NCBI GenBank assembly: GCA_025358575.1
Contig: JANYJA010000166.1
Coordinates: 1 to 32,201, forward strand
DNA: 32,201 nucleotides
Direction of reading: 5' to 3'
Source: Terriglobia bacterium
GTDB lineage: Bacteria > Acidobacteriota > Terriglobia > Bryobacterales > Bryobacteraceae
A model generated the notes under the pieces. It was not told where the DNA came from, ran no database searches, and saw only the letters and a list, made by a program, of their open reading frames with translations. Positions 1,351 through 28,451 of the stretch are shown piece after piece. The stretch's first letter is position 1, and the number at the start of each line of letters is the position of its first letter. Position numbers and translations under genes: made by a program.

Positions 1351-1377
1351 GGTTACTCTAATAATAGAGGACTATGG
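1351..1377. promoter_or_regulatory. Short divergent gap with an imperfect palindrome feeding both ribosome binding sites
   Basis: The 27 bp between two divergent start codons contains CTCTA-ATAA-TAGAG (1356-1369). The right arm plus the next base reads TAGAGG, a Shine-Dalgarno-like site 7 bp before the GTG at 1378. The left arm read on the minus strand gives TAGAG about 5 bp before the ATG at 1350. There is no room here for two full promoters, so transcription must start inside the opposing coding sequences. A regulatory role for the palindrome is inference. Confidence 0.4.
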
Positions 1378-8384: not shown

Positions 8385-11054
8385 CTAATTCACAAACAAG
8401 AGTTCATTCGAACTCAGCAGCACTTCGGCGTAGGGGAGCAAAGCGTCTTTCTTGCTCGACAGGAACTGCTCGCCCAGTTTGAGTTCATCGGGGCGCGGGT
8501 CGCGACCGAAGACCGTTCGGTAGGCTTTGCGGATACGCTCATCGGATGAAGGCACGGCGTTGATGGACTGAGTTAAAGCTTTCGCGCGGCTCTCGAGAAA
8601 TGCGCTATTCAAGAAGAAAAGCTGCTGCAACGGTGTCGCGGTGGAGATGCGCTTTTCGGCGGAAAGATTGGGGTTGGGAAAATCGAAGAGCGCCAAAGTT
8701 CCATCCAGCTTGCGCCGGCTGATGAAGCCGTAGACGGAGCGGCGGTGGTTGTCTTCCTTTTCCAGTGACACGGGTGCGCCGCCGGCGTTGGTATCGAGCT
8801 CGCCAGTCACGGCGAGCAGCGTGTCGCGCATGGATTCAGCATCGAGGCGTTGGCGATTGGCGCGCCAGAGCAGGCGATTGTCGGGATCGACGGCGAAGTT
8901 GGCGGCGGAATAATCGGAACTCAACTGGTATGCAGTCGACAGCATGATTTCGCGCTGAAGCTTCTTGATGGACCAGCCGTTTTCGACAAAGCTGGCGGCA
9001 AGATAATCGAGCAGAGCAGGGTTGCTGGGCGTTTCTCCCATGCGTCCGAAATTACTGACGGTGCGGACCAGGCCGTCGCCGAAGTGATGCTGCCAGATTC
9101 GATTGACCATGACGCGCGCGGTCAACGGGTTGGTGGGACTGGCGATGGCTTCGGCGAGCTCGAGACGCCCGCTGCCATCTTTGAAGGGTTTGGGATCGCC
9201 CGCGGAAAGAATGGAGAGAAAGGCGCGCGGGGCGACTTCGCCGAGACGATCGGGCTGGCCGCCGATCTGAACACGCTCATCGTGCGGCGCGGAGTCTTTG
9301 ATGACGTGGGCGAAGGCGTATTGCGGCGGGAGCGCGGACGTGAGATCGCTGAGCTCGGCGCGCATGTCACCGAGGTAATTCTTCCAGCGGCCTTCGAGGA
9401 AGCGCTCGACGGTGCCGTCGGAGGTGAGGTATCCGCGATTGGGACCGAACCAAAGAATGCCGTCTTCTTCCTGCTTGAATTCACGCCCGTAGAAATCGTT
9501 GAAGAAGAGATCGCGCCAAAGGTAGTAGCGATCGGGCGGCAGGGCGGCGGGGACAGCCTTATTCTCGGGATCGTTGGTGGCTTGCAGGGTCAGATTCTTG
9601 CGATCGACTTCCTTGCGCTCGTTCAGGACGGAAAGGGCTTCCTGGCGGAAGCGGCTGAGATCGAAAGCGTCGTCGCGCCAGCCGTGAAGGAGCTTATTGT
9701 CCTCGGGGCCGGTCTTCAAATAAGTGACCCAGCGCTTCAGAACTTCGGGATCGAGACGATCAGCGGCGGCGACATCGGCGAGAGGCTGAGGCGCGAGAAC
9801 TTTGCGGGCGGCGCGGATGTAGCGCGGGGATTCAGAGGCGAGCATCTCGGCGAGAGAATCGGCCTGCTCCTTGAGGAACTGCTCGATGCGGGTCTTGACC
9901 GCCTCGACCTTGGCGTTCTGATCTTTCCAGCGCTTCACTTCATCGGCGGGGGCGAGTTCGAGCTCGGCGCGCTTGGTGCTGCTGAAGACGCCTTGGAGCG
10001 CGTAGAAATCCTTGGTCGGGAGCGGATCGAATTTGTGATTGTGACACTGGGCGCAGGCGGCGGTAAGGGCGAGGAAGCCGCGGGTGGTGACGTCGACGCG
10101 ATCGTCGGTGAGTTCGGGGCTGAGGCCGTAGAAACCGAGACCGACGGCCAGCTGTGGGTCATCCGCAGCGATCTGGTCGCCGGCGATTTGCGCTTTGACG
10201 AAAGTGTCGTAGGGCATATCGTCATTGAAGGCCTTGATGACCCAGTCGCGGTAGCGGAAAGAGTTCGGGTAGGGGAGTTCGACATCGCTATCGAGACGGT
10301 CGTCGGCGTAGCGTGAAACATCGAGCCAGTAGCGGGCCCAGCGTTCGCCGTAACGGGGCGAGGCGAGCAGGCGGTCGACAATTTTGGCGTAAGCGTTGGG
10401 GGATTGATCGGAGAGGAACGCTTGCGTTTCGGCGAAGGTGGGAGGCAGGCCAGTGAGATCGAAGTAAGCTCGGCGGATGAGATCGCGCTTATCGGCGCGG
10501 GCGTTGGGCTGAAGCGATTTGGCTTCCAGCTGCTGGAGCACGAAACGGTCGATGGCGGTGGTGGACCAAGCGGTGTTGTTAACTTCGGGAGTGACGGGTT
10601 TTTTGACCGGCTGGAAGGCCCAAAAGGCGCGCTGCTGGGGGGTGATAACGTACTTGCTGCCCGCGGGGATGGCGGCGGTTTTGCTCTCGGGCCAGAAGGC
10701 GCCGGCTTTGATCCAATTGGTGAGAAGCGCGATTTCGGCGTCGGGCATTTTGCCCTGGCCCATGGGCATCTTGAGCTTGTCGTTAGTTTGAAGAATGGCT
10801 TCGATGAGGAGACTTTCTTCCGGCTTTCCGGGGATGAGCGCGGGGCCGGATTTGCCGCCATGCAGGAGGGCATCGCGACTGGTCATGGTGAGGCCGCCGA
10901 GCGCGGAGGACGAGTGGCAGGCGAAGCAGCGATTGGCGAGGATGGGGCGGATCTTGAGTTCGAATTGTTCGCCGGGATCGGATGCGGGCGGGGCGGCGAG
11001 GAGGGGACCAGCGAAAGCGAGGGCCGTGAGGAGAGCCCGAGAGGAGCGCGGCAT
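8385..11054 (-). CDS. PSD1 / planctomycete-type cytochrome c protein (PSCyt1, DUF1549, DUF1553)
   Basis: The frame opens at 11282, but the ATG at 11054 starts a proper signal peptide (ALLTALAFAGPLLAAP), so the product is taken as 889 residues; the longer N-terminus overlaps the vapB remnant. The domains in order are: a cytochrome c-like PSCyt1 module with haem motif CFACH at 43-47; a DUF1549 (PSCyt2) domain from about AIDRFVLQQLEA, with RRAYFDLTGLPP, WARYWLDVSRYAD and a second CAQCH in AQCHNHKFDPL; and a C-terminal DUF1553 (PSD1) domain with NPLTARVMVNRIWQHHFG and SNFGRMGE. The pair with DUF1501 is widespread in Planctomycetes and Acidobacteria and is thought to act on polysaccharides or their derivatives with an electron-transfer step. 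The reaction is unproven. Confidence 0.92.
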   Translation of the reverse strand: MPRSSRALLTALAFAGPLLAAPPASDPGEQFELKIRPILANRCFACHSSSALGGLTMTSRDALLHGGKSGPALIPGKPEESLLIEAILQTNDKLKMPMGQGKMPDAEIALLTNWIKAGAFWPESKTAAIPAGSKYVITPQQRAFWAFQPVKKPVTPEVNNTAWSTTAIDRFVLQQLEAKSLQPNARADKRDLIRRAYFDLTGLPPTFAETQAFLSDQSPNAYAKIVDRLLASPRYGERWARYWLDVSRYADDRLDSDVELPYPNSFRYRDWVIKAFNDDMPYDTFVKAQIAGDQIAADDPQLAVGLGFYGLSPELTDDRVDVTTRGFLALTAACAQCHNHKFDPLPTKDFYALQGVFSSTKRAELELAPADEVKRWKDQNAKVEAVKTRIEQFLKEQADSLAEMLASESPRYIRAARKVLAPQPLADVAAADRLDPEVLKRWVTYLKTGPEDNKLLHGWRDDAFDLSRFRQEALSVLNERKEVDRKNLTLQATNDPENKAVPAALPPDRYYLWRDLFFNDFYGREFKQEEDGILWFGPNRGYLTSDGTVERFLEGRWKNYLGDMRAELSDLTSALPPQYAFAHVIKDSAPHDERVQIGGQPDRLGEVAPRAFLSILSAGDPKPFKDGSGRLELAEAIASPTNPLTARVMVNRIWQHHFGDGLVRTVSNFGRMGETPSNPALLDYLAASFVENGWSIKKLQREIMLSTAYQLSSDYSAANFAVDPDNRLLWRANRQRLDAESMRDTLLAVTGELDTNAGGAPVSLEKEDNHRRSVYGFISRRKLDGTLALFDFPNPNLSAEKRISTATPLQQLFFLNSAFLESRAKALTQSINAVPSSDERIRKAYRTVFGRDPRPDELKLGEQFLSSKKDALLPYAEVLLSSNELLFVN

Positions 11055-11599: not shown

Positions 11600-13786
11600 C
11601 TACTTCAACACGAACCCGACCGATTCTTGCGCGGTTTCGGTGCCCTGCTGCACGATGAAGCGGATTTTGTAGTTTCCGGGGGCGAGGGACGCCAATGGAG
11701 CGGTCGCCACATATTGAATTCTTCCGTCCTTGTCAGGCAGGCTGAGGGGCGGGCGGCCGCTGCCGAGAATCTGGCCGTCCTTGCTGAATTCCATCTCAAG
11801 CGCGAGGGCGGTGGCGTTGCCTTTGGCGGGGTAGATGACGACGTAGAACGGAAGCGTCGGCGAGACGGCCTTGTCGATGACCGGATTGAGAGTCAGGGTC
11901 ACGAGTTTGTCGGCCATCAGGAGCGGGTCGTCCGGGCTGCTGTCGGCGAGCTTATCCTTCAGGTTTCGAATCGCTCCAACGCTGCTGATCCCGAGCGTGC
12001 CGGAGTTGGGAGGCAATTCGAAGCTGCTCTTCTGGGCGCTGAGCCGGGTGCCGGAGCCGCCGAGCGCGGTGACGGCCTGATCGGAAACGGCGGCTTCCAC
12101 GGTATATTTGCCGGGATCGGCTGTAAAGTGTTCGGCGAAGGTGAAGTGACTTTCCTTCAGCGCTTGTATTTTGGCCGCGGGGACTTTCAGTGGAATGTCG
12201 TTCTGGAACTTTTTCACGACGTCGCCGCTCGAATTTTTCACGAGGATCACATAAGTCAGGTGGCCCTCATATATTTTGGCGGCTTTATTTTCGTCGAAGG
12301 TGAGATTGCCGAGCGGCACGTCCAGGATGACTTCGGCTGTGGATTCAGGGCCGGCTCCGCGAAAGTGCAAGCCCATGGCCTGAAACTGGAAAGTAGCGGG
12401 TAAAGTAGGCGCTTCCAGGGCTTGCAACAGGGAAACTTCATAGCCGCTCACCGGAACCGTGCCGCGGGTCAGCGACGCCGGGAGCGCGAAGTATCCCGAG
12501 CGGGATTGCACTTTGAAATCGCTGCGCGCAAGCTTCACGCCAATCTTATGGAAAGATCCGTCATAGTGCTCGATGGCGGGGTTGTAGCTGATTTCATAGT
12601 AAGTTTGGATATCTTCACTGATGCGGCGCAGAGGACCTTTGAAGTCGTTGGTATTGGCAATGAGCGTGCCACCCGTGGAGGAAGCGAGATTTTCGAGGAT
12701 GTTTTCAGTATTGGCTCCGGCGCTATCCAAAGCTTTATCCTGGGATTTCACTTGCTCCTGGGAAACGGCGCCACTTCGGTTCATGGAAGTGCGGGAAGCC
12801 GCAGCGGCAGAAGCGAGCTCGGAAGAGGCATTGGCGTTTCCCCCCTCCATTCCGAGACCGCTGGCTTCAATGGCATAGAAGCTGACGTTCGAGCGATTGG
12901 CCATGGTGATCACCGATCGGAAAGGCTCTTCCATTCCTTGCGGGATACGGAAGCCTTCGGAGAAATAGAGGATCGTTTTACGGCCCGGCAGGCGGTATTG
13001 TTCCTTGACGGCCGTGAGCAGGGCATAGATACTCGCTCGCCCGCCAGCGGCGTCAGCCATGCCCTGTTGGGCTTCCAGCATACGCAACATGATCACAGCG
13101 GTTAACTGGGCTACGATGGCGCTCGCGTTGGGAGCCGCGCCAGGGCCGGAAGTGGCGGTGGCCCCCGTGGACATATTGTCGACCTGTTCTTGCAGGCTTT
13201 GGGCATTCTGCGGAGTTCCCGCAAGCGACTGCACCTGGGAGCGAACCTGGGCGGAATCGGCGCTGTAGTCGCTGACTCCGCTGCTGGTGGCGCGGTCGAT
13301 TCCCTTCTTCAACAGGTCGCGATTGTTGGTGAACTGCTGGACCGCCTGAAGTCTTTGATCGATGGTCATAACGGCCATGTAGACGTTCTGGGGAAGTTCA
13401 CTCTTGATGACCTCGAGGGCGGCTTCCCGCGCGAGGCGGCGGGCATTCATGTCCAGCCGGTCAAAGATCAAGGTGACGAGACGAATTTGGCGCAATGGAT
13501 CGAGCGTGGTTCGGGCTCCCGAGGCTCCGACGGCTTCAGTTCCCTGCACCAGGCGGAACGATTCGATTTTACGACCCTGGCCATTGTCGGAGATCTCGAA
13601 ATCGCCCTCTTTCAAATCAGTGACGGAGCGGCCCTTTTTGTCACGGACGACAACGTCAACCAGGACGTTCTGAGTAGAACTCTTAATGGTGGCGCCGGGC
13701 GACGCGGGCTGCGCGGCTAAACGATGAAAGGGCGCGCCGAGAAGACATGCCCCGGATAGAATCAAGGCCTTGCAGTTCATATTCAT
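11600..13786 (-). CDS. Secreted VWFA-related acidobacterial domain protein
   Basis: The 728-residue product has a signal peptide (residues 1-25, ending RLAAQ). It then matches the VWFA-related acidobacterial family (TIGR03436 type): TQNVLVDVVVRDKKGRSVTDLKEGDFEISDNGQ, then LVTLIFDRLDMNARRL in place of a canonical DxSxS MIDAS, YMAVMTIDQRLQ, GRKTILYFSEGFRIP and a stretch ending in TYYEISYNPA. The C-terminal 250 residues are beta-rich and resemble accessory surface domains. Family members are exported, and their ligand is unknown. It is last in the minus-strand run from the TonB receptor, 30 bp after the TPR gene at 13817-14848. Two ATGs (13786 and 13780) are possible starts, neither with a clear ribosome binding site. 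Confidence 0.88.
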   Translation of the reverse strand: MNMNCKALILSGACLLGAPFHRLAAQPASPGATIKSSTQNVLVDVVVRDKKGRSVTDLKEGDFEISDNGQGRKIESFRLVQGTEAVGASGARTTLDPLRQIRLVTLIFDRLDMNARRLAREAALEVIKSELPQNVYMAVMTIDQRLQAVQQFTNNRDLLKKGIDRATSSGVSDYSADSAQVRSQVQSLAGTPQNAQSLQEQVDNMSTGATATSGPGAAPNASAIVAQLTAVIMLRMLEAQQGMADAAGGRASIYALLTAVKEQYRLPGRKTILYFSEGFRIPQGMEEPFRSVITMANRSNVSFYAIEASGLGMEGGNANASSELASAAAASRTSMNRSGAVSQEQVKSQDKALDSAGANTENILENLASSTGGTLIANTNDFKGPLRRISEDIQTYYEISYNPAIEHYDGSFHKIGVKLARSDFKVQSRSGYFALPASLTRGTVPVSGYEVSLLQALEAPTLPATFQFQAMGLHFRGAGPESTAEVILDVPLGNLTFDENKAAKIYEGHLTYVILVKNSSGDVVKKFQNDIPLKVPAAKIQALKESHFTFAEHFTADPGKYTVEAAVSDQAVTALGGSGTRLSAQKSSFELPPNSGTLGISSVGAIRNLKDKLADSSPDDPLLMADKLVTLTLNPVIDKAVSPTLPFYVVIYPAKGNATALALEMEFSKDGQILGSGRPPLSLPDKDGRIQYVATAPLASLAPGNYKIRFIVQQGTETAQESVGFVLK

Positions 13787-13816: not shown

Positions 13817-14848
13817 TTATTGGGCAATTTCATTCTTCAGCCGCAGGAATTCGGCGCGCTCTTTAGCGGCTTCCACTTTTCGTCCGGCCTTGGCATAGGC
13901 AGCGGCGAGCGCGAAATGGGTTTGGGGACTTTCGGGCGCGAGGCGGGCGGACTGCCGCAGCTCTTTCATACCGTCGTCCAAATGACCGGTTTCGACCAGG
14001 GCTCGTCCCAAAATGTTGTGCGCTTCGAATGATTGCGGATGGTTTTCGACAGCTTCGCGCGCAAACGGCAGCGCGGCGGCGGCATCGGTCCTTCGTAAGT
14101 TCTCTACCGCAATGGCGACGAGCGCTGGGAGGTGATGGGGCGAGATGACGAGCTCTTGTTTCAACTCAGCCAGGGCGCGATCGGGATCGGCGACCAAGAG
14201 ATAAGAGCCATAGGTATAGTGAACGTTCGGGACGTCAGGATAAGTGGCGACCAAAATTTTGAAGTCGGCTTCGGCTTTATCGGGGCGGCGGGCCAGGGTA
14301 TCGAGGACGGCTTTGCCGGCGGCGGCGACGAGCGCGCGATCTTTTTCGGGAACGCCAAAGGGAAGCAGCGGCCGGCGGAGTGCGGCGAGACCGGCGACAG
14401 CGGTAGTGGGTCCGTCCTCATCCGCGCCGCTGGCGATGAGTTCGGTGAGCTTTTCCAAGGCGGTCTCGAATTGGGCGGCGCGGGTGAGGAGAGCGATGAG
14501 GTGAAATTCAGAGATCTGCGCCAGGGACCCTTTGCCGCGAACGCCGAGTGTGTATCCACGGCCAAGGTGGGCTAGGGCGGCATCATACTCCATGGTGCGG
14601 TATTCACAGAGGCCTAGGAGCGAGAAACCAGGGCCGGCTTCGGCGTTAAGTGAGACCAAGTGCTTGAGGGCGTCGCGAGCTTCGGCGTATTTGTCCTGGT
14701 CGTAGTAAAGAGTGCCGAGCGCCCACCAGGCATCCTGCGAGGAGGGATGAAGTGCGACTTCTTTTTGAGCACGGGCGAGCTGGGGAATGTCCTGAGCGGT
14801 GGCGGCCGAGGCAGCGCAGATTAGGGCGAGAAGGAGGAAGCCGCGCAT
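13817..14848 (-). CDS. Secreted tetratricopeptide repeat protein
   Basis: The 343-residue product has a signal peptide (MRGFLLLALICAASAATAQ) and then TPR helices, for example WWALGTLYYDQDKYAEARDAL, GFSLLGLCEYRTMEYDAAL and PHLPAL-type spacing, ending with a repeat in THFALAAAYAKAGRKVEAA. It is a clear paralogue of the product of 21222-22343 along nearly its whole length, with shared blocks LLGLCE, ALRRP, YPDVPNVHY and AYAKAGRK. TPR proteins act as protein-binding scaffolds; this one is probably periplasmic. It begins 5 bp after the previous TPR gene's stop, so the two are almost certainly co-translated. Confidence 0.85.
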   Translation of the reverse strand: MRGFLLLALICAASAATAQDIPQLARAQKEVALHPSSQDAWWALGTLYYDQDKYAEARDALKHLVSLNAEAGPGFSLLGLCEYRTMEYDAALAHLGRGYTLGVRGKGSLAQISEFHLIALLTRAAQFETALEKLTELIASGADEDGPTTAVAGLAALRRPLLPFGVPEKDRALVAAAGKAVLDTLARRPDKAEADFKILVATYPDVPNVHYTYGSYLLVADPDRALAELKQELVISPHHLPALVAIAVENLRRTDAAAALPFAREAVENHPQSFEAHNILGRALVETGHLDDGMKELRQSARLAPESPQTHFALAAAYAKAGRKVEAAKERAEFLRLKNEIAQ

Positions 14849-14853
14849 GAGAA

Positions 14854-15978
14854 CTATTTCGGCTGCACGACGCCGGGTTGTTTGGCTTGGGTGGCGGCGT
14901 TCATCTTCAGGATCAGGGCACGCTCGCGGTCGCCATCTTCACGGCGCTTGAGTTTGTAATAGGCGGTGGCGAGGGAGACGTGCGCCTCGACGAAATTGGG
15001 GGTCTTGGCGATGATGGATTCGAGCTCCCTTCGGGCCCCCTCTACCTGCTGCTGGCTCATGAGCAGAAGGGCCATCTGGTACCGGGTGGCGGCGTCGCCG
15101 GGGCGTGCTTCGAGAGCCTTGGCGAGGTGCGCGGTGGCTGCATCGTATTCCTGATCTTCACGCAGCATGGCACCGAGCTGAAGCTGGGCTTCATAGCTGT
15201 TAGGGTTGCGTTTGATTTCTTCGAGGAACTCCTTAGACGCGCCGCCGCGGTCTCCGGTGCTCATGAGGGCGGCGGCGTAATAGCCGTGCACGTCGGGAAG
15301 CTCGGGATTCAGTTCGACGGCTTTTTGGAGGTCGGGGAGGGCGCCGGAGAAATCGCTGGCCGTGAGTTTGGCGGTGCCGATCATGAGGCGGGCTTCCGCG
15401 GAATCACCGTTGCGCAGAATGAGTTCGACCAGCTTCTGGCCTTCATCGGGCTGCTTATCGCGGATGAGGGCAGTTCCAAGCATGTAGGCGATGGCCAGAT
15501 TGGCGGCGGCTTGGGCTTTATGTGGTTCGAGAAGCTCAATGACGGCTTTGTTGTTGCCCTGACGAAGCTCGGAATCGGCCAGGAGCTGCAGGGCTTGCGC
15601 GTTGGCGGGCTGGAGGGCGTGGAGGGCGGTAAGGGGCGGAATGGCGAGGGCGAGCCGATCTGTTTTGTAGTAGGCAAGGGCGAGATCGAGGAGAGCGTTA
15701 GGATTCTTCGGATCGGTGGCTAGGGCGCGCTGATATTCAGAGATGGCGTCGGCGTAGCGGCCAAGGTGGGCGAGCGAGACGCCGAGATTGATTCGGGCAT
15801 CGGTGACTTGAGGGCGAAGCTTGAGTATGTCTTTGTAGATTGTAATGGCGCCTAGGTAATCGCCAGACTGCTGGAGCTCAATGGCGTGCTTGAAGAGGGA
15901 GTCGGGAGTGGGGGTGTCGGCGGCGACCAGCGCGAGGGCCGCGGCCAGTGGCACCAGCACGCGCCATTTAGCGGACAT
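14854..15978 (-). CDS. Secreted tetratricopeptide repeat protein
   Basis: A longer frame begins with TTG at 16002, but the ATG at 15978 gives a standard signal peptide (MSAKWRVLVPLAAALALVAAD) and is preferred, for 374 residues. Several TPR units follow, such as ATDPKNPNALLDLALAYYKTDR and NPNSYEAQLQLGAMLREDQEYDAA, ending in FVEAHVSLATAYYKLKRREDGDRERALILK. The central part (LGTALIRDKQPDEGQ) is nearly identical to LGTALIRDKQVDEGQ in the upstream gene, so the two are tandem duplicates. The start overlaps the end of the upstream gene by about 10 bp, which implies translational coupling. The binding partner is unknown. Confidence 0.85.
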   Translation of the reverse strand: MSAKWRVLVPLAAALALVAADTPTPDSLFKHAIELQQSGDYLGAITIYKDILKLRPQVTDARINLGVSLAHLGRYADAISEYQRALATDPKNPNALLDLALAYYKTDRLALAIPPLTALHALQPANAQALQLLADSELRQGNNKAVIELLEPHKAQAAANLAIAYMLGTALIRDKQPDEGQKLVELILRNGDSAEARLMIGTAKLTASDFSGALPDLQKAVELNPELPDVHGYYAAALMSTGDRGGASKEFLEEIKRNPNSYEAQLQLGAMLREDQEYDAATAHLAKALEARPGDAATRYQMALLLMSQQQVEGARRELESIIAKTPNFVEAHVSLATAYYKLKRREDGDRERALILKMNAATQAKQPGVVQPK

Positions 15979-17407
15979 GGGTGGGGCTACCGAATTTTTC
16001 AAGGGCGGCGGCCATGTCGGCGGGGCGGAAGTCGAGTTCGGTCAGGGCGCTGGTGTAAGCGATGCGGCCTTGGGGATCGATGACGAAAACGCGGCTGGGC
16101 CAAGCGGAATAGCGGGATTCGACTGCTCCATCCATGCCGTCGATCAGAATCGGAAAGTCGATTTTCAGCTTACGAGCACAGAGGGCGGCATGGCCGGATT
16201 TTTCTTGCATATTCGTGGCGGGATCTAGAGCGACTTGCTCGCGTTCGTTGCGGGTGCTCTGCCAAGTACCGGCGGCGTGGGCCTCTCGAATATAGACCAT
16301 ATAAAACGGCATATGGTTACCATATTGGCGGTAAAACGCGTTCAATGCAGGGGCAGCGGCGCGGAAGTTTGGACAAGTATAGCTGCCAAGGATGAGGATG
16401 ATGGGGGCTTTACCGAGAAGTTGGGCAAGATGGACGGGGTGGCCGGTTTTGGGATCGGGGAGTGAGAAATCGGGGGCGATTGAGCCAGCGGGAGGGCCGC
16501 TTTGGGCAGGGGCGTCGCTGAGACGCTGCGCCAGTGCGGAACGCGCTTCCACTGAATCCGGGCGGAGCTGAAGAGCTCGCTTCAGAAAAGCTTCAGCTTC
16601 GGCGTATTTTCCGCGCTGCTTAAGGATTTCGCCAAGGTAGAGATTGGCCTCGAAATCGGCGGGATTGGCGGCTAATTCGTTGTGAAAGGCTTGCGAGGCG
16701 GCGTCGGGATCGCCAGTGTTCAGGAGCGCTTGGCCGTAGGCGGATTGGAGTCCGGGAAGACTCGGGTTGATGGCGATGGCCTTGGCGAACTCGGTGACAG
16801 CGTTCGGAAATGCACCCGCCGCGGACATTTGAGTGCCGAGGAGGAAGTGAGCTTCGGCGGACTCACCGTTGGAAAGAATGCGATTGACCCACTGCTGACC
16901 TTCGTCCACTTGTTTGTCTCGAATGAGGGCGGTGCCGAGAATGTACGCGACGGCGAGGTTAGATGCGTCCGCCTGCCCGACGAGACGCAAGAGCTTGATG
17001 ACTTTTTCATTTTGACCGAGACGGAGCCAGGAGTCGGCAAGGAGGAGAGTGACTTGCTGGTTTTTGGGGTCGGCGGCGCGGAGATCTTCAAACTGAGCTG
17101 CGGCGGGATCGAAGCGGCCCATCTTGTAGAGTGACAGCGCTAGGTTGAGCTTGAGAGCCGCGTTAGAGGGATCGGAGCGCAGGGCGATGCGGTATTCGGT
17201 GGAGGCTTCTTCATAGCGGGCGAGTTTCGACAAAACGAAGCCAAGGTTGGAGTGGACGGCGGCTAGCGAGGGATCAGCTTTGAGTACTTCGCGGAACTTA
17301 TCGGCGGCGGCCGCGAGATCGCCGGATTGCTGAAGACGCAGAGCTTCTCTGAGAGCGTCCGAAGGGGAAATCTGCAAAAGAAAAAAAACGAAGAGGGGAG
17401 CAAGCAC
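15968..17407 (-). CDS. TPR protein with C-terminal deiodinase/thioredoxin-like domain
   Basis: The 479-residue product starts at a GTG (17407) with a short hydrophobic leader (MLAPLFVFFLLQ). Residues about 18-300 are TPR helices, duplicated from or into the next gene. From about 318 (SIAPDFSLPDP) it becomes a thioredoxin-fold domain whose landmarks fit the iodothyronine deiodinase-like family better than ordinary peroxiredoxins. These are LILGSYTCPNFR with Cys345, FYMVYIREAHAAGTW, and FPILIDGMDG...WPSRVFVIDPQG. In animal deiodinases the Cys345 position is selenocysteine; here the codon is TGT. The histidine in YIREAH matches the conserved deiodinase His. Bacterial relatives are probably thiol peroxidases or reductases. 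The start lies about 10 bp after a strong terminator that ends the receptor transcript. Confidence 0.85.
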   Translation of the reverse strand: MLAPLFVFFLLQISPSDALREALRLQQSGDLAAAADKFREVLKADPSLAAVHSNLGFVLSKLARYEEASTEYRIALRSDPSNAALKLNLALSLYKMGRFDPAAAQFEDLRAADPKNQQVTLLLADSWLRLGQNEKVIKLLRLVGQADASNLAVAYILGTALIRDKQVDEGQQWVNRILSNGESAEAHFLLGTQMSAAGAFPNAVTEFAKAIAINPSLPGLQSAYGQALLNTGDPDAASQAFHNELAANPADFEANLYLGEILKQRGKYAEAEAFLKRALQLRPDSVEARSALAQRLSDAPAQSGPPAGSIAPDFSLPDPKTGHPVHLAQLLGKAPIILILGSYTCPNFRAAAPALNAFYRQYGNHMPFYMVYIREAHAAGTWQSTRNEREQVALDPATNMQEKSGHAALCARKLKIDFPILIDGMDGAVESRYSAWPSRVFVIDPQGRIAYTSALTELDFRPADMAAALEKFGSPTHVR

Positions 17408-17417
17408 GGGGCTAATG

Positions 17418-17448
17418 AAAAAAGCGGGATGGCCGAAGCCACCCCGCT
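17418..17448 (-). terminator. Rho-independent terminator of the TonB receptor gene
   Basis: On the minus strand an 11-bp stem (AGCGGGGTGGC paired with GCCATCCCGCT, one G-T wobble) closes a TTCG loop and is followed directly by six T residues. It lies 18 bp after the receptor stop codon and ends about 10 bp before the GTG of the TPR-deiodinase gene. Confidence 0.92.
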
Positions 17449-17465
17449 CGATTTAAAACGACTGA

Positions 17466-20400
17466 TTAGAAGTAGAACTTGACCGCAAGCTGAATGGTTC
17501 GATGACCGAACTTATCAGTGACGATGCCAAAGTTCTTGTTTTCGTTCTTCCCGTCTTTACCCAGTTGGAGGGTTAAGTTGTTGGCACCCGAATCGATGAA
17601 GCTGTTGATCGGATGGTTGAGGAAGTTGTAAGCCGAGAAGCGGAACTGCAACTTGCGCGACTCGCCCATCTGGAAGTTCTTGAACATGGAAAGATCGCTG
17701 TCGAAGAACGCTGGGCCGAAGACTTCGGGGAGGACGGTCGGGCCGTTATGACCGATCGTCGGAGCCGCGAAGCAATTGCCGTTGATGTACTGATTCTTAC
17801 CCAGACCCTTTGAAGGGTTACAGGTCACCAGGGGATGCAGATCGATGGAACCGGTGCCAGTAACGTAGGTCCCATTAAAGTTTGGCAGATAATCGCCGCT
17901 CTGCAGGTTAAAGCTCTGGTTGCCGTTCTGCTCCAGATTCTGTCCGGAGGAGAACTGCGTGATTCCGGAGATCTGCCAGCCGTTAACGACGCCCTTCATG
18001 AGAGCATTGCCTTCCTTGATTACGTTGGGGAGTTCGTATGAATACGCCGCGTTGAAAATGTGACGACGATCATTTGAGGTCGGCCCATAGTTGTTTTTGA
18101 GGTTGAGGCGATCAGCAGTACCGGTGATTCCCAGCGCCTTACCGAACGTGTAATTGGCCTGATAATTCCAGCGACCGCTCTGGCGAACCCAGCTCAACTG
18201 CAAGCTGTGAAAGTTCGAGTAGAGGTTATTACGAGCGACGTTCAGATCCTGATAGTTCACCAGGGGACGGGCGTTATCGTAAGCGTCGGAACTGACGTTT
18301 CCGTTTCCGATGAACGTACCGTAGGGAACAGCGTTGACGTTGTTGAAATTCCCGTTCGAATCGGGAAGATACCGCGACGAGTTGCCGACATAAGATGCTT
18401 CAAACAAGCTATGTCCAAAGGTGCGCTGCGAGACAGTGAAGCTCCAGCTATAGGTTAAAGGCTGTTCGGAGTCTTTCTGGTCGAGCACGTTGAGACCTTG
18501 CCGTCCGCTGGTGGCGAGCGTTGGGGTCAGCGCCTGCAACTGATTGAACGAGAGTAGACTGCCTTGGCTGTAATTCAACACGCCGAAGCCCACGTCGAGA
18601 CCGTTTGTAAACTGCGGCGTATGATAACGGAATGCGCCCCAGCCACCGCGAATAACAGTTTTGCCGGTGCCGAAGACGTCGTACGCCAACCCAAATCGGG
18701 GTGCCCAGAAAAGAGCTTTCTGATTGAACCCGGAAAGCGGCACACTCTTGTTGCGCGCATGCCAGAGAACACCGTCATAATTGGTTGGAGCGGTGGGGGT
18801 ATTGGTGTAAGTGGACGGAGCCCAAACCGAAAAGCCCACGCCCTGGCGGTCATACCAGTTACCAAGATGCGAAGCTCTTAACCCAAGCTCCAAGGTCAGG
18901 CGGCGGCTGGTCTTCCAGCTATCCTGCACGAAGCCTTCATGAACACTATAAGCTTCATTGTGAAGTGGATTCAAGTTGGTCTCAGAGTATTGAGCGGCAT
19001 TGCCAAGGATTAGATCGGCAAACGTGTTGCCCGTCGAACCGCCAGCCCAGGGCGCTTCAATAATCAACCCATTGGTGTTGTTGTTGGCTGGCTGATTGTT
19101 GATAATTTTTTCCCAGTAATAGCCAAATTTGAGCGTGTGCGTCCCAGCTACCTTGGTCAAGGTATCGGAGAAGGAGGGCAAATATTTGGTGGCGAAGAGC
19201 GTTCCGTTTCCGCCCTTTTCGAAACCGCCCGGATTGAAGATGGCACCAATGCCACTGCCCCATGACAAAACCGAGGGGATCTGGGCCACGCCATTCTTAT
19301 AAACTCCAGTGAATGGAATACCGAGATTTTTGCGGTCTACTTTCTTGGGATCTTCAAAAGTATTCGGGAAATTGATGTAGGTGTATCCGACCACGGCTTC
19401 GTTGGTGAGCGTTGGATTGAAGACGTGAGTCAAACTAGCCGACAAAGACTTTGAAGTGTTGCGACCGTCAATCGGAGTCGGGTAAGGCACCTGACCGGTA
19501 TTTCTCCACCAAAGGCCGATGGGAAACTGCTGAAGTTCATTCTGCAGGTTGTAACGCACAAACAACTTGGTATTGTCGCTGATGCTGTAATCCACGCGAG
19601 AGAGCGACTGATAGGAATTCTGATTCAGATTGTACTGCTTCGCGAAATTGAAGCCCTGGGTTTGGGCCGGGTTCGCATTAGGCAGCGGATAAAGAGCCGA
19701 AAGCGCCTTACCCGTGGGATCGACAGAGCCCGCCGGAATGATACCGCTGGGATAGTTCTTGATGAACGCCTGCGCGGCAGTGTTACCGCCATTGGCTGCG
19801 GAAGTGAGCGAAGCCAGGTCGGCGGAGAAATCGCCGATTCGCTCCCCAGCGGACGGGACATTAGAAGTCACCAGACCCGTATCGAGCGTCTGCTTGTAAT
19901 ATTCAAATGCCGTAAAGAAGAACAGCTTGTCGCGGTTCTTATTGAAGTTGGTTCCAGGGATAAGGACCGGACCGCCGATCTGGCCGCCCGGGAAAAAGTA
20001 CTTATTTTCCGGTTTGACCAAACCTAGCTTGTTGTTCTCGTAGTCATTGGCGTTCATCGCATAGTGGCGTGCGTAGAGGTAGGCTTCGCCATGAAAATCC
20101 TTACCGCCCGACTTGGCGATCGAATTCATGACAATCGGCCCCTTCGAATTCTCGGCGCTGAAGTTCGAGGTCATAACCTTGAACTCCTGAATCATGTCGG
20201 TGTTCGGATTGACCGGGGTGGCGCAGTTGCAACCGGGGTCGGAGACGTGTGAGCCGTCCGCCGTGATATCGATCGAAGAGGAACCGAGGCCATTCGCCGA
20301 ATATCCGCCGAGCGCGCTCTGCCGTCCACCTTCACCGCCGCCATTGATTCCGATCACTTCGCCGCTATAGCCGGGCTTGTTTTGGACGCCGGTGTTCGCT

Positions 20401-20903
20401 GACGCAAAGCCCGGGAGAATTTTGATGAATTCGGCGGCACTCCGGCCAACCACGGAAAAATCTTGAAGCTGTTTGGTGGTTAAGACGGAAGCTTTTTCGC
20501 CGCTATCAACCGTTCCTACGATGTCGGCGGAACTGGTAACCGTGACTTCGGCCTTGGAACTGCCGACCTGGAGAGTGAAATCCGCCTTGCGGGTTTCCGC
20601 GCCGAGCAGGTTCAGACCGGTTTGTTCCGTCTTCTGAAAACCTGGGGCGTCGACCGCGATCGAATAACCGCCTGCTGGAACTGAAGAAAATACGTAATAG
20701 CCGTCGGAATTGGTGACCGAGCGGCGGATGTCACCGGATGCAGAGTTCGTGGCGATGACGTTGGCCCTGGCTACGACCGAGCCGGAAGCGTCAGTGACGG
20801 TTCCAGTGATCGTGCCGAAAACGGACTGCGCTTGGAGTCCGGCGGAGAAAATGAGAAGCAGACCCAACACACATGGGAAGACCCTTGATACAAGTTTCGA
20901 CAT
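17466..20903 (-). CDS. Oar-like TonB-dependent receptor with carboxypeptidase-regulatory N-terminus
   Basis: The 1145-residue product has a signal peptide (residues 1-25, ending LQAQ). A carboxypeptidase-regulatory domain (GTITGTVTDASGSVVARANV to about residue 110) is followed by a plug domain (VLTTKQLQDFSVVGRSAAEFIKILPGF) and a large outer-membrane beta-barrel with TPR-free, aromatic-rich strands. It ends AVKFYF, a typical barrel C-terminus. GVNGGG-like and SSIDITADGSHVSDPGCNC segments match the acidobacterial Oar/TonB-receptor family. These proteins import or bind large substrates such as oligosaccharides or peptides, but the ligand cannot be read from sequence. The ATG at 20903 has AAGAGG about 5 bp upstream. 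A near-consensus promoter and a terminator bracket the gene, so it can be transcribed alone. Confidence 0.93.
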   Translation of the reverse strand: MSKLVSRVFPCVLGLLLIFSAGLQAQSVFGTITGTVTDASGSVVARANVIATNSASGDIRRSVTNSDGYYVFSSVPAGGYSIAVDAPGFQKTEQTGLNLLGAETRKADFTLQVGSSKAEVTVTSSADIVGTVDSGEKASVLTTKQLQDFSVVGRSAAEFIKILPGFASANTGVQNKPGYSGEVIGINGGGEGGRQSALGGYSANGLGSSSIDITADGSHVSDPGCNCATPVNPNTDMIQEFKVMTSNFSAENSKGPIVMNSIAKSGGKDFHGEAYLYARHYAMNANDYENNKLGLVKPENKYFFPGGQIGGPVLIPGTNFNKNRDKLFFFTAFEYYKQTLDTGLVTSNVPSAGERIGDFSADLASLTSAANGGNTAAQAFIKNYPSGIIPAGSVDPTGKALSALYPLPNANPAQTQGFNFAKQYNLNQNSYQSLSRVDYSISDNTKLFVRYNLQNELQQFPIGLWWRNTGQVPYPTPIDGRNTSKSLSASLTHVFNPTLTNEAVVGYTYINFPNTFEDPKKVDRKNLGIPFTGVYKNGVAQIPSVLSWGSGIGAIFNPGGFEKGGNGTLFATKYLPSFSDTLTKVAGTHTLKFGYYWEKIINNQPANNNTNGLIIEAPWAGGSTGNTFADLILGNAAQYSETNLNPLHNEAYSVHEGFVQDSWKTSRRLTLELGLRASHLGNWYDRQGVGFSVWAPSTYTNTPTAPTNYDGVLWHARNKSVPLSGFNQKALFWAPRFGLAYDVFGTGKTVIRGGWGAFRYHTPQFTNGLDVGFGVLNYSQGSLLSFNQLQALTPTLATSGRQGLNVLDQKDSEQPLTYSWSFTVSQRTFGHSLFEASYVGNSSRYLPDSNGNFNNVNAVPYGTFIGNGNVSSDAYDNARPLVNYQDLNVARNNLYSNFHSLQLSWVRQSGRWNYQANYTFGKALGITGTADRLNLKNNYGPTSNDRRHIFNAAYSYELPNVIKEGNALMKGVVNGWQISGITQFSSGQNLEQNGNQSFNLQSGDYLPNFNGTYVTGTGSIDLHPLVTCNPSKGLGKNQYINGNCFAAPTIGHNGPTVLPEVFGPAFFDSDLSMFKNFQMGESRKLQFRFSAYNFLNHPINSFIDSGANNLTLQLGKDGKNENKNFGIVTDKFGHRTIQLAVKFYF

Positions 20904-20931: not shown

Positions 20932-20961
20932 ACTATATAGTGGATTTCTACGAGATGTCAA
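20932..20961 (-). promoter_or_regulatory. Near-consensus sigma70-type promoter for the TonB receptor
   Basis: On the minus strand TTGACA (20961-20956) is separated by 18 bp from TATAGT (20937-20932); a TATATA shifted by two bases offers a 16-bp spacer. This is the strongest promoter seen in the window. It lies about 30 bp before the ATG at 20903, whose ribosome binding site AAGAGG is also good. Confidence 0.7.
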
Positions 20962-21221: not shown

Positions 21222-22343
21222 ATGATATTTTTCCTACTTTGGTTATTGGCAGGTCAGTTGTCGGGCCAGTCTACCCTTAAAACAGGAACAGTAACGCCCT
21301 TCGAGCAACTGAGCGCACAGGCGGCGGCGGCGCGCGATTCCAACGACGTGGAGCGCGCGATTGCGCTTTATCGCCAAGGCGTTACGCGCCGACCGAAATG
21401 GGCCGAAGGCTGGTATTTCATTGCCACTATGGAATATGACCGCGACCGTTATAAGGAAGCGCGCGATGCGTTCCGGAATTTTCTGCCGCTCGATCCAGGG
21501 AAGGGTGCTGGATGGGCGCTCCTGGGACTTTGCGAATTCCAAACAAAGGGATATGAGTTGGCACTGCAGCATATCGCGCGCGGCCTGCGTTTAGGAGCCG
21601 GAAGCAGCGAGGAATTGAATAAGGTAGCGCGCTATCACGAGGCTTTGTTATTAACGCATTTTGGGCGTTTCGAGGAAGCCGCCCAACAGTTGATGTGGTT
21701 TGCGCGCAGCGGATCGGAGGAGCGGCAAATTGTTCTCTTGACCGGCTTGGCGTCGCTGCGTAGACCGATCTTCCCTGAGGATGTGGCCCCCCAGGACAGT
21801 GAATTGGTGACGGCGGCGGGACGCGCGGTTTTGGATTTGATGGCGCGACGGGCGGCGCAGGCGGCGGAGGAGATGAGGCATCTGGCGAGCGCTTATCCCG
21901 ACACGCCGAATGTGCACTACATTTACGGAACGTATTTGATGGAGGCGGATCCGGAGGCGGGACTGCGCGAGTTGAAGCGGGAGCTGGAAATCTCGCCCGG
22001 GCATGTGCCAGCTTTGACCACGATCGCGATTCAACTTCTGAAAGACGATGCGGCCGGGGCGCTGCCCTATGCACGCAAGGCGGTGGAATTTGGGCCGGGG
22101 GTATTCGTCACGCACAATGTCTACGGGCGCGCATTAATGGAGCTGGGTCAATTGAAGGCGGGAATTGCCGAGCTGGAAGTTGCGGCAAAGCTGGCGCCGG
22201 ATAGCGTGCAGACACGGATCACCTTAGCGAGCGCATATGCCAAGGATGGGCGGAAAGAAGATGCGGCGCGGGAACGAGCGGCTTTTTTGAAGCTGAAGAA
22301 GGCGGAGGGCAAGGGGGCGGCCTCCAGCGGTCAGATCGAGTAG
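21222..22343 (+). CDS. Secreted tetratricopeptide repeat protein, paralogue of 13817-14848
   Basis: The 373-residue product begins with a signal peptide (MIFFLLWLLAGQLSGQ) and continues with TPR units. It aligns along most of its length with the TPR protein at 13817-14848. Shared blocks are YKEARDAFRNFLPLDP/YAEARDALKHLVSLNA, LLGLCE, LASLRRP/LAALRRP, AYPDTPNVHYIYGTYL/TYPDVPNVHYTYGSYL and ASAYAKDGRKEDAA/AAAYAKAGRKVEAA. It is transcribed away from the TonB receptor. Such paralogues flanking a receptor suggest a common role, perhaps binding of substrate or partner proteins in the periplasm (inference). Its stop overlaps the convergent regulator pseudogene by 13 bp. No strong ribosome binding site is visible. 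Confidence 0.85.
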   Translation: MIFFLLWLLAGQLSGQSTLKTGTVTPFEQLSAQAAAARDSNDVERAIALYRQGVTRRPKWAEGWYFIATMEYDRDRYKEARDAFRNFLPLDPGKGAGWALLGLCEFQTKGYELALQHIARGLRLGAGSSEELNKVARYHEALLLTHFGRFEEAAQQLMWFARSGSEERQIVLLTGLASLRRPIFPEDVAPQDSELVTAAGRAVLDLMARRAAQAAEEMRHLASAYPDTPNVHYIYGTYLMEADPEAGLRELKRELEISPGHVPALTTIAIQLLKDDAAGALPYARKAVEFGPGVFVTHNVYGRALMELGQLKAGIAELEVAAKLAPDSVQTRITLASAYAKDGRKEDAARERAAFLKLKKAEGKGAASSGQIE

Positions 22344-26448: not shown

Positions 26449-26994
26449 GTGACCCCTCCCATAACTGACGCTACTGGCGCACCCACGCAGCACACCCGCC
26501 GATCTTACCTGGGCTGGTTGCTGGGCCTGTGTTCGGCGGGCGTAAGCGCAATCTTGGCAGTCCCGTTAATTCGGTTTGCGTTATATCCGTTGACGGCCAA
26601 GACCACCGAGACGAAGTGGTCCGACATTGGGCCGTCGGCCGACTTTCAAGAAATTACCACACCGATCCAGCGCCTGATCAACGTCGAACAAGTAGACGGC
26701 TGGCGCAAGCAGATCTCGGACAAGGTGGTTTACGTTACTAAGACCACTGGCGGGGAGACGTGTGTCCTTTCATCGGTTTGTCCGCATCTTGGGTGTTCCG
26801 TACAGTGGGCGGTCGCCCAGCATCAGTTCGTTTGCCCCTGCCATGGCGCGACATTTGGAATTGACGGTGCGCGGCTGGGGGGACCGGCTCCGCGGGCGAT
26901 GGACCGGCTCGATAGCAAGGTGGAGGCTGACAGGCTGATTGTCCGTTACCGTTACTTTAGACAGTTGGTTCCGGGTAAGGAAGTGATCGGTTGA
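26449..26994 (+). CDS. Rieske iron-sulfur subunit of a cytochrome bc complex
   Basis: The 181-residue product starts at a GTG (26449), as no ATG precedes the membrane anchor. Residues about 20-47 form a Tat-like signal-anchor (RRSYLGWLLGLCSAGVSA). The [2Fe-2S] site is CPHLGC and CPCHG: C111 and H113 with C129 and H132 bind the cluster, and C116 and C131 form the stabilising disulfide. The protein passes electrons from quinol at the Qo site to cytochrome c. The stop TGA overlaps the start of the cytochrome b gene by one base (TGATG), so the two are translationally coupled. Confidence 0.93.
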   Translation: MTPPITDATGAPTQHTRRSYLGWLLGLCSAGVSAILAVPLIRFALYPLTAKTTETKWSDIGPSADFQEITTPIQRLINVEQVDGWRKQISDKVVYVTKTTGGETCVLSSVCPHLGCSVQWAVAQHQFVCPCHGATFGIDGARLGGPAPRAMDRLDSKVEADRLIVRYRYFRQLVPGKEVIG

Positions 26995-28451
26995 TGAACG
27001 AACCAGAGCGTGGTCCCGCCCCTAAGACGGGCGGCCTGTTCCACTGGTTCGACCAGCGAACAGGCATCGATGAAATTCTTCGAAAGTCACTGGACGAGCC
27101 CATCCCAGGCGGCGCGCGTTTCGCGTATGTCTTCGGATCGGCGCTGCTGTTAGTTTTCATCTCGCAGGTCATCACCGGCGCCTTTTTAGCTCTGTATTAT
27201 GTGCCGTCCGCCGACCACGCCCACACCACTGTCGCTTACATCATGAAGCAAGTATCGGCCGGATCGTTCCTCCGGAGTATTCACGCTTACGGCTCGAGCG
27301 CGATGGTGATTTTGCTGCTGCTGCATGTGACCCAGACTTTCTTATACGGCTCGTATAAAGGGCGTCGTGAGCTATTGTGGCTTTCCGGATGTGTCCTGTT
27401 CGCCCTGGCTCTGTGCATGGCCTTCACCGGCTACCTGCTGCCTTGGGATCAAAAAGCTTATTTCGCGACCGTCGTGGGCACCAATATCGCTGGAGAAATC
27501 CCGTTCGTCGGCGCATGGATCAAGAACGCCATGCGGGGCGGCGTGGACATGGGGACACTGACGCTCTCCCGGTTCTTTGTCGCCCATGTTTTTCTGGTGC
27601 CCGCGGCTATATTTAGCTTCATTGCGTTGCACGTGTATATGTTTCGCAAAGCCGGTGCCGCCGGCCCGATTCACGAAGATCCACTAACTCCGAAACTGCC
27701 GCCGGAGACATTCTATCCGCGCCAGGTCGTCATTGATGCGCTTTTTGCTCTGGTAATCATCGCGGTGCTGGCTGTGCTGTCTCAGTTTTTGCCCTTTGAC
27801 CTCGGACCCAAAGCGAACCCGGCGGACACCCGCTACCTGCCTCGGCCCGAGTGGTACTACATTCCAATCTTCCAATATTTAAGATATTGGCCAAGCTCAT
27901 TGTCATTTCTTGGCGTGGTCGTTATCCCCGGCGTCGTAGCTTTCTTGTTTGCAAGTTTGCCGTTCCTGGATCGCAGAATGGAACGCCGACCCTGGAAGCG
28001 ACCCATTGCAGTCGGCGCTTACGTGTTTATATTGCTGGCCTTGTTTGGGTTGGGAGCCGTGAGCTATCGCAACGATCGTCTCGACCCTGCTTTCGCCACT
28101 CAGTTGCTGGCACAACAAAAGGCAGCTGAAGAATTCAGCCAGCAGCCCTTTGAGCTTGAAGTGTCGCAAACTTCGTTAGCGTCCTCGAGCGCCGCGCCGA
28201 CGGATCCGTTGGTGGTCGCGGGCGAGAAACTCTATCAGGCCCAGTCTTGCGGGGCCTGCCACGGGGACACGGGGGCGGGCACTGCCGCTGCCCCCAAGCT
28301 TGCAGGAATCAAAACGCGGTTTTCCGCCGCGGCCCTGGCCGCTTTGCTAAGAACCCCTTCAGCAAAGATGACGGCTGGCGGCATGACCCCGGTGACTCTT
28401 CCCGACCCGGACCTTGCGGCGCTAATTGATTACCTCAATTCGTTGAAGTGA
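26994..28451 (+). CDS. Cytochrome b (b6-like N-terminus plus subunit IV-like part) fused to cytochrome c
   Basis: The start is taken as the ATG at 26994, one base overlapping the Rieske stop, for 485 residues; a TTG one codon earlier is not needed. The first half holds four membrane helices with haem ligands H97/H111 and H198/H213. The second pair is spaced by 14 intervening residues, as in cytochrome b6, not 13 as in mitochondrial-type cytochrome b. Three further helices follow, with PEWY at 285-288 at the quinol oxidation site. After about residue 400 comes a periplasmic cytochrome c domain with CGACH at 419-423 and a Met-containing segment (KMTAGGM) as likely axial ligand. The complex oxidises quinol, pumps protons by the Q cycle and reduces cytochrome c. 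Confidence 0.93.
   Translation: MNEPERGPAPKTGGLFHWFDQRTGIDEILRKSLDEPIPGGARFAYVFGSALLLVFISQVITGAFLALYYVPSADHAHTTVAYIMKQVSAGSFLRSIHAYGSSAMVILLLLHVTQTFLYGSYKGRRELLWLSGCVLFALALCMAFTGYLLPWDQKAYFATVVGTNIAGEIPFVGAWIKNAMRGGVDMGTLTLSRFFVAHVFLVPAAIFSFIALHVYMFRKAGAAGPIHEDPLTPKLPPETFYPRQVVIDALFALVIIAVLAVLSQFLPFDLGPKANPADTRYLPRPEWYYIPIFQYLRYWPSSLSFLGVVVIPGVVAFLFASLPFLDRRMERRPWKRPIAVGAYVFILLALFGLGAVSYRNDRLDPAFATQLLAQQKAAEEFSQQPFELEVSQTSLASSSAAPTDPLVVAGEKLYQAQSCGACHGDTGAGTAAAPKLAGIKTRFSAAALAALLRTPSAKMTAGGMTPVTLPDPDLAALIDYLNSLK

Follow-up and report, generated by a model that had tools for sequence, protein, structure and literature searches.

A tetratricopeptide repeat protein with a cysteine-type deiodinase-family domain, and its clade's link to a receptor and cytochrome gene cassette in Acidobacteria

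The 32,201-nucleotide contig JANYJA010000166.1 of Terriglobia bacterium (assembly GCA_025358575.1), which was analyzed as a whole and is referred to here as the window, encodes a protein of 479 residues (15968–17407, minus strand; GTG start) in which a tetratricopeptide repeat (TPR) scaffold is joined to a C-terminal, cysteine-type domain of the deiodinase family; we refer to it as TPR-deiodinase. An initial annotation made from the sequence alone had reported an open reading frame here with the blocks GSYTCP, YIREAH and WPSRVFVIDPQGR, and all three are present, with the minus strand as the coding strand. A short hydrophobic N-terminus, recognized by eye as a putative signal, is followed by the scaffold (about residues 17–293; 16529–17359), whose TPR nature is confirmed by Pfam TPR families far above their cut-offs (TPR_19, 98.2 bits against a cut-off of 25) and by successive helices across these residues in the AlphaFold2 model. 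The protein is probably exported, judging from its N-terminus, and would reside in the periplasm. The scaffold is 43% identical over 280 residues to TPR2, the product of the next gene, and TPR-deiodinase therefore likely arose by duplication of a TPR gene and gain of a domain. That domain (about residues 303–472; 15992–16501) contains the active-site block GSYTCP (residues 341–346; 16370–16387) with Cys345 encoded by TGT (16373–16375), the YIREAH block (residues 372–377; 16277–16294), Cys410 (16178–16180), which is the sole other cysteine of the protein and a candidate resolving cysteine, and the WPSRVFVIDPQGR block (residues 436–448; 16064–16102), all on the minus strand.

The placement of the domain in the deiodinase-like thioredoxin family, proposed in the initial annotation, is borne out by profile, sequence and predicted fold. 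Scanned alone, the domain matches T4_deiodinase (PF00837; curated cut-off 27 bits) with 62.4 bits (E-value 5e-17), ahead of AhpC-TSA (42.1), Redoxin (36.4) and Thioredoxin_8 (20.9); the AhpC-TSA and Redoxin profiles also exceed their own cut-offs but rank below T4_deiodinase. The whole protein gives the same order (T4_deiodinase 59.2 bits, E-value 4.9e-16; AhpC-TSA 38.0; Redoxin 32.5), and it is the only PF00837 match in the window's genome. The first solved relatives found by phmmer are Dio3 (4tr3, E-value 4.7e-10) and Dio2 (9h48, E-value 3e-8). AlphaFold2 models have predicted local distance difference test scores of 91.5 for the full-length protein and 93.6 for the domain, and with the domain model Foldseek ranks 4tr3 (4.1e-13) and 9h48 (8.2e-13) ahead of a ResA variant (5.8e-10). 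VIA-align likewise gives Z-scores of 20.3 and 20.2 for 4tr3 and 9h48 (root-mean-square deviation 3.3–3.4 over 171–172 residues), followed by 2ls5 (18.0), DsbE 3gl3 (17.7) and ResA (17.0 and below), and both lead again with the whole-protein model (Z-scores 20.2 and 20.0). Overall, these two are the best solved folds, with Z-scores of about 20 over 168–172 residues at 22–23% identity, whereas ResA, DsbE and CcmG share the thioredoxin fold and come next, with lower scores in both programs and fewer aligned residues (131–145). Identity as an AhpC/TSA or ResA protein, the outcome that would have spoken against the annotation, was rejected on these rankings. The NF038285 'deiodinase family protein' profile scores 155.3 bits on the whole protein, below its cut-off of 250; its best stretch covers profile positions 172–340 of 347, the second half, and the TPRs stand where the first half would lie. 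We conclude that the domain belongs, as a Cys form, to the bacterial deiodinase-like family already known, with which it shares the profile, the selenocysteine (Sec) or Cys at one position, and the order GSxT(U/C)P then Y-I-x-E-A-H.

The assignment of Cys345 to the Sec position also holds. Matches to the domain (E-value ≤ 0.001) occur in 24 of 61 related genomes, the window's own included, and one in-frame TGA is present in 12 of the 18 matches better than 1e-30, as well as in 21 of the 30 best loci from a search of the acidobacterial phylum; read through, the relatives' TGA aligns with Cys345. The phylum search used NF038285 and gave matches in 222 of 396 genomes at an E-value of ≤ 0.001, none over its cut-off; many were weak and partial, 6 of 14 control genomes were positive, and it was used only for collecting strong loci. 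Mean hairpin energies after the TGA or Cys codon (−13.4 in 34 Sec loci, −10.8 in 33 Cys loci) are no test for a selenocysteine insertion sequence, so the Sec reading of the TGA rests on its conserved place and the known family. SelA (483.5 bits) and SelB (308.8 bits, over cut-off) both match in the window's genome, and their lack does not therefore explain Cys345. One related locus (L011, genome G009; match 1501–1995) has glycine at the TGA/Cys place (GSYTGPPFR) in Sec-type surroundings, reflecting either an inactive copy or a sequencing error.

We aligned the domains of 46 members, 29 of them TPR-fused Cys forms (TPR-Cys, window included) and 17 Sec forms; T4_deiodinase matches all 46, AhpC-TSA 36 and Redoxin 35. 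The family signatures, GSxT(U/C)P and Y..E.H, are both present in TPR-deiodinase, and the residues invariant in all 46 include Ser342, Cys345, Arg349, Tyr372, Glu375, His377, Cys410 and Pro437; position 344 is Thr in 36 and Ser in 10, and position 382 is Trp in 42. Position 347 is Asn, Lys, Gln or Arg in 29 of 29 TPR-Cys forms and Pro in 17 of 17 Sec forms, and position 384 is Ser in all 29 TPR-Cys and in none of the 17 Sec forms; these positions mark the TPR-Cys clade. Ser342, Thr344, Tyr372, Glu375, His377 and Trp382 are the counterparts of Dio2 Ser127, Thr129, Tyr157, Glu160, His162 and Trp167, and PMC11592359 proposes a Dio2 proton relay of Ser127, Thr129, Tyr157, Glu160, His162 and His182. 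The relay is thus kept save for the counterpart of His182, which, like Dio3 His219 (numbered by our own count along the aligned sequence), falls at Ala397; none of the 46 has a His in that column, and one has a His in the next. For Dio3, PMC11592359 proposes that Phe258 is a gate opening the cleft, that Arg275 clamps the carboxylate, and that a loop His acts in the relay, but in the phmmer alignment Phe258 corresponds to Pro437 and Arg275 to Leu455, and gate and clamp are both missing. The catalytic Sec of the animal enzymes is missing too, although this is not decisive against an animal-type enzyme, since invertebrates have Cys deiodinases and Cys for Sec does not abolish activity (PMC9141512).

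At 34 of 34 TPR-Cys loci the domain, taken as the stretch reaching from 43 residues ahead of the catalytic Cys to 135 behind it, has exactly two cysteines, 63–69 residues apart; two of these loci, L096 and L118, are cut at the contig end. A Cys345–Cys410 pair is not proven by the animal enzymes, because in DIO1 it is the proximal Cys that forms the bond and the distal Cys showed no kinetic role (PMC9141512), and the place of the proximal Cys is occupied by Tyr343 in TPR-deiodinase.

TPR-fused Cys forms constitute a single clade. From a scan of named genomes, which used peptide patterns of Cys forms and so favors them, we took the best 80 of 158 confirmed loci, comprising 34 TPR-Cys, 34 Sec and 12 others (Cys forms without TPR-length N-termini, fragments, and a hydrolase fusion, L138). 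TPR-Cys loci were defined by more than 180 residues ahead of the match and no in-frame TGA, except that two cut by contig ends (L096 and L118) were counted by motif alone. All 34 are labeled as Acidobacteria or groups within, 18 of them as Bryobacteraceae, Bryobacterales, Solibacteraceae, Solibacter or Sulfopaludibacter. A tree of 104 rows places the 35 TPR-Cys rows, the window's among them, all to the same side of a branch supported at 97/90, a split kept in 96% of 200 bootstrap trees; one row (L144) is wrongly labeled as a Cys form although it carries an in-frame TGA. TPRs are Pfam-confirmed in the window, L077, L094 and L114 and visible in the alignment for 28 more; by contrast, Sec relatives have no more than 127 residues before the match in 30 of 34 loci, and full-length scans of 17 Sec proteins gave no match to a TPR family. 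The two forms also differ in their motifs, with TCPNFR, WQST and LxExDF in TPR-Cys and TUPPFR and GPxGF in Sec forms. In L077 and L094, a TPR2 homologue follows the domain within one fused protein. The 1330-residue protein of L114 was considered as a longer fusion and rejected, as the stretch covering its first 850 residues appears to be read in the wrong frame, ahead of the true start. The hydrolase fusion, in Aporhodopirellula aestuarii (8738–10507), joins a deiodinase domain to an alpha/beta hydrolase (BD-FAE) and an EF-hand-like repeat, and CS replaces CP in its active-site block.

In the window, TPR-deiodinase is the second gene of a minus-strand run in the order receptor, TPR-deiodinase, TPR2, TPR3 and VWFA protein. 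The adjoining receptor of the initial annotation is real: the product of 17466–20903 is a TonB-type outer-membrane receptor with CarboxypepD_reg and an outer-membrane beta barrel (OMP_b-brl_4, PF25183, 460.7 bits). Its genome has 71 matches to PF25183, fragments included, so an adjoining receptor alone says little, and we checked whether it is a chance neighbor at the level of the subfamily (identity of 40% or more), which has two close members in this genome. The receptor from another TPR-Cys locus (L082) picks out the window receptor at 58%, then one more at 49%, with the following match at 30%, and chance neighborhood was rejected. TPR2 (14854–16002) is a sister TPR protein without cysteine, and an in-frame ATG at 15978 that overlaps the TPR-deiodinase stop is, by eye, its more likely start. 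TPR3 (13817–14848) and a VWFA-like protein (11600–13786; TIGR03436 acidobact_VWFA, 241.6 bits) complete the run. By pattern match, a sigma-70-like promoter (20932–20961, minus strand; 11 of 12 matches) lies upstream of the receptor, and a terminator-like hairpin (17422–17449, minus strand; 12 pairs, TTCG loop, T run) occupies the gap that separates the receptor gene from TPR-deiodinase, ending 14 bases before the GTG, although the window has fewer terminator-like sites than shuffled sequence (6 versus 10.7). The hairpin may attenuate TPR-deiodinase expression downstream of the receptor gene.

The TPR-Cys clade is tied to a wider cassette of which these genes are part. Among the 34 TPR-Cys loci, the receptor subfamily, a cytochrome c and TPR2 are each present at 23, an FG-GAP/UnbV protein at 18, a malectin-domain protein at 16, a TPR3-type protein at 15 and a VWFA protein at 11. 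These counts are lower bounds, since contig ends cut many loci, and stricter clustering gave 20, 21 and 16 loci where looser clustering gave 23, 23 and 18. Eight loci (L077, L098, L099, L102, L105, L111, L112 and L120) have the order TPR-deiodinase, TPR2, cytochrome, FG-GAP/UnbV, and others have the same genes in different orders. Seven CxxCH motifs are present in 18 of 21 copies of the cytochrome and fewer in three; the one copy scanned has modest matches, all over cut-off, to Cytochrom_c3_2, MtrC/MtrF-like and Cytochrome_C554 families. The malectin-domain protein beside the cassette (273–1973 in L087; 152–1792 in L111) is possibly a regulator.

Sec loci differ in this respect. Cassette genes are absent from a first set of 11 named acidobacterial Sec loci, drawn largely from groups other than the window's, and 12 Sec loci from the window's family or order have no receptor subfamily member, cytochrome, TPR2, TPR3-type, malectin-domain or VWFA gene, although four of them are short (L182, L186, L190 and L191; 8–12.5 kb) and a distant FG-GAP/UnbV protein (41–42%) is present in two. 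The lack of the cassette in this closer control supports the association. A looser search of the 34 named Sec loci gave four distant receptors, one weak TPR3-type match and no TPR2. The cytochrome (E-value ≤ 1e-60) is also found in 13 of the 61 related genomes, comprising all five with a TPR-Cys gene (G000, which is the window's own, G006, G008, G018, where contig ends split the gene, and G029) and 8 of the 56 others (hypergeometric p = 2.2e-4, uncorrected for kinship).

We favor a periplasmic two-cysteine thiol reductase because the cysteine pair is invariant, most of the proton relay is kept and the start is signal-like, and the location beside a multi-haem cytochrome and a receptor suggests that the enzyme serves their system. 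As a whole, the interpretation of TPR-deiodinase as an exported TPR scaffold with a Cys-type deiodinase-family arm, acting as a two-cysteine thiol reductase that serves the cassette, is one on which we are evenly balanced. In the disulfide cycle, reaction, substrate and docking that we infer, Cys345 would be the nucleophile reducing an oxidized or electrophilic group (peroxide, disulfide, sulfenate or similar), Cys410 would resolve it as a disulfide, and the pair would be reset by a periplasmic thiol donor that draws on a DsbD-type protein; the TPR superhelix would dock the redox arm onto cassette partners (TonB receptor, TPR2, multi-haem cytochrome c, FG-GAP/UnbV, VWFA). The single DsbD_TM gene of the window's genome (105 bits) is a possible electron source. 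More generally, TPR-deiodinase probably belongs, as a thiol-based redox component, to a system for uptake or electron transfer rather than being a hormone enzyme. The initial annotation had suggested thiol or halogen chemistry on a bound partner or substrate: the thiol half is the best reading and is strengthened by the cassette, the halogen half finds no specific support (Ala397, Pro437 and Leu455), and action on a bound partner would be in keeping with the TPRs.

Several observations weigh against a two-cysteine reductase serving the cassette. The window has neither such a cytochrome nor an FG-GAP gene beside TPR-deiodinase; the copies in this genome are on contig 214 (L160; 5032–14316), where TPR3-, TPR2-, receptor-, cytochrome- and VWFA-like genes form a cassette without a deiodinase domain, and on contig 123 (L161; 9730–12574), which has a separate cytochrome and FG-GAP/UnbV pair. 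Because the contig-214 cassette has none, the deiodinase arm is an optional rather than a required part. No cytochrome is seen at 11 of the 34 TPR-Cys loci and no subfamily receptor at 11, partly through contig ends, and KBS 96 (L079, a 20.5 kb stretch), a cultured relative in which the genes for TPR-deiodinase, TPR2 and the cytochrome are next to one another, has only a distant receptor (27%). Cys410 falls 8 columns before Dio3 Cys239, the distal Cys, in the phmmer alignment, and it is missing in Sec relatives further out than the 46 aligned (e.g. L036 and L042). Finally, the GTG start lies behind the terminator-like hairpin, and no ribosome-binding site was seen there by eye.

An alternative explanation is that the TPRs hold the apocytochrome while the domain maintains the CxxCH cysteines of that cytochrome in the reduced state needed for haem attachment, akin to the combined work of CcmI and a CcmG/ResA-like protein; CcmI and CcmG serve apocytochrome handling and thiol reduction for haem attachment. 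The pairing of TPRs and a redox domain beside a cytochrome with mostly seven CxxCH motifs is what this would look like, and ResA, DsbE and CcmG follow the Dios in the fold rankings, but the CxxC motif of ResA and CcmG is lacking (Cys345-Pro-Asn-Phe348), 8 of the 13 related genomes with the cytochrome have no TPR-Cys gene, and one cytochrome copy in the window's own genome sits in a cassette without one; we consider it rather unlikely. We think equally little of a peroxiredoxin-like peroxide scavenger linked to the cassette by co-transcription only. AhpC/TSA (42.1 bits) and Redoxin (36.4 bits) do pass their own cut-offs, and of the peroxiredoxin active-site motif PxxxT/SxxC, the T/S-x-x-C portion is matched by Ser342, three residues ahead of the Cys; however, both profiles score under that of the deiodinases, the Pro at minus 7 is Leu338 here, and fusion to TPR2 and variable order around the same partners exceed what a single operon would give.

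Less probable still are two further alternatives. A Cys-type reductive dehalogenase, acting on an imported aromatic compound to strip off its iodine or other halogen, would suit the deiodinase family and fold, the retained counterparts of the proton relay (Ser342, Thr344, Tyr372, Glu375 and His377) with Trp382, and the existence of invertebrate Cys forms together with the activity left when Cys replaces Sec (PMC9141512). Yet Ala397, Pro437 and Leu455 stand in place of the thyronine-handling residues Dio3 His219, Phe258 and Arg275, no halogen-enzyme family other than this domain was found among 15 window and 5 cassette proteins scanned, and those who first described the bacterial proteins considered a different function likely (PMC1088965); we hold this reading to be very unlikely. 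A thiol switch without turnover, in which the domain senses oxidation and alters partner binding by the TPRs, is similarly improbable: it accords with a protein that has no more than two cysteines, each of them conserved, with several TPR proteins in the cassette and with the contig-214 cassette that lacks the domain, whereas the retention of most of the animal-enzyme relay argues against it.

Elsewhere in the window, a divergent TPR protein (21222–22343, plus strand) is 47% identical to TPR3 over 332 residues. A 1146-residue protein (1285–4725, plus strand) joins GH18, polysaccharide deacetylase and family-2 glycosyltransferase domains, and a cytochrome b with a C-terminal cytochrome c domain (26991–28451, plus strand) is preceded by a protein that appears Rieske-like by eye (26449–26994). 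No tRNA genes were found in the window.

Deiodinase-like proteins of bacteria, some with Sec and some with Cys, have been on record since 2005 (PMC1088965) and are listed in a 2026 review (PMC13188914), and thus the family itself is already known; the TPR-Cys clade, the two-cysteine rule and the shared cassette were not found in print. The open-access literature, which leaves subscription papers mostly uncovered, yielded no report of a TPR fusion of the deiodinase domain or of this cassette, and no tested function for bacterial deiodinase-like proteins. The tables of Solibacter paralogs in PMC3174227 include UnbV, TonB and von Willebrand genes and show no such cassette. TPR-deiodinase differs from Dio2 and Dio3 in its Cys, its TPR scaffold and its lack of a proximal Cys, and from the Sec forms in its clade's place in the cassette.

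A more ambitious proposal, which we think quite unlikely as it stands, is an acidobacterial outer-membrane and periplasmic system in which a compound, oxidized or halogenated, is imported by the TonB receptor, handed on by TPR proteins and reduced by the two-cysteine, deiodinase-fold arm together with the multi-haem cytochrome. If true, this would give the deiodinase fold a bacterial role and show its work outside thyroid hormone chemistry. The clade tied to the cassette provides a testable context for the function of the deiodinase fold in bacteria, and its Cys form sidesteps the difficulty of selenoprotein production. The loss of the counterparts of Dio3 His219, Phe258 and Arg275, with the rest of the relay kept, helps to separate the catalytic core of the family from hormone recognition.

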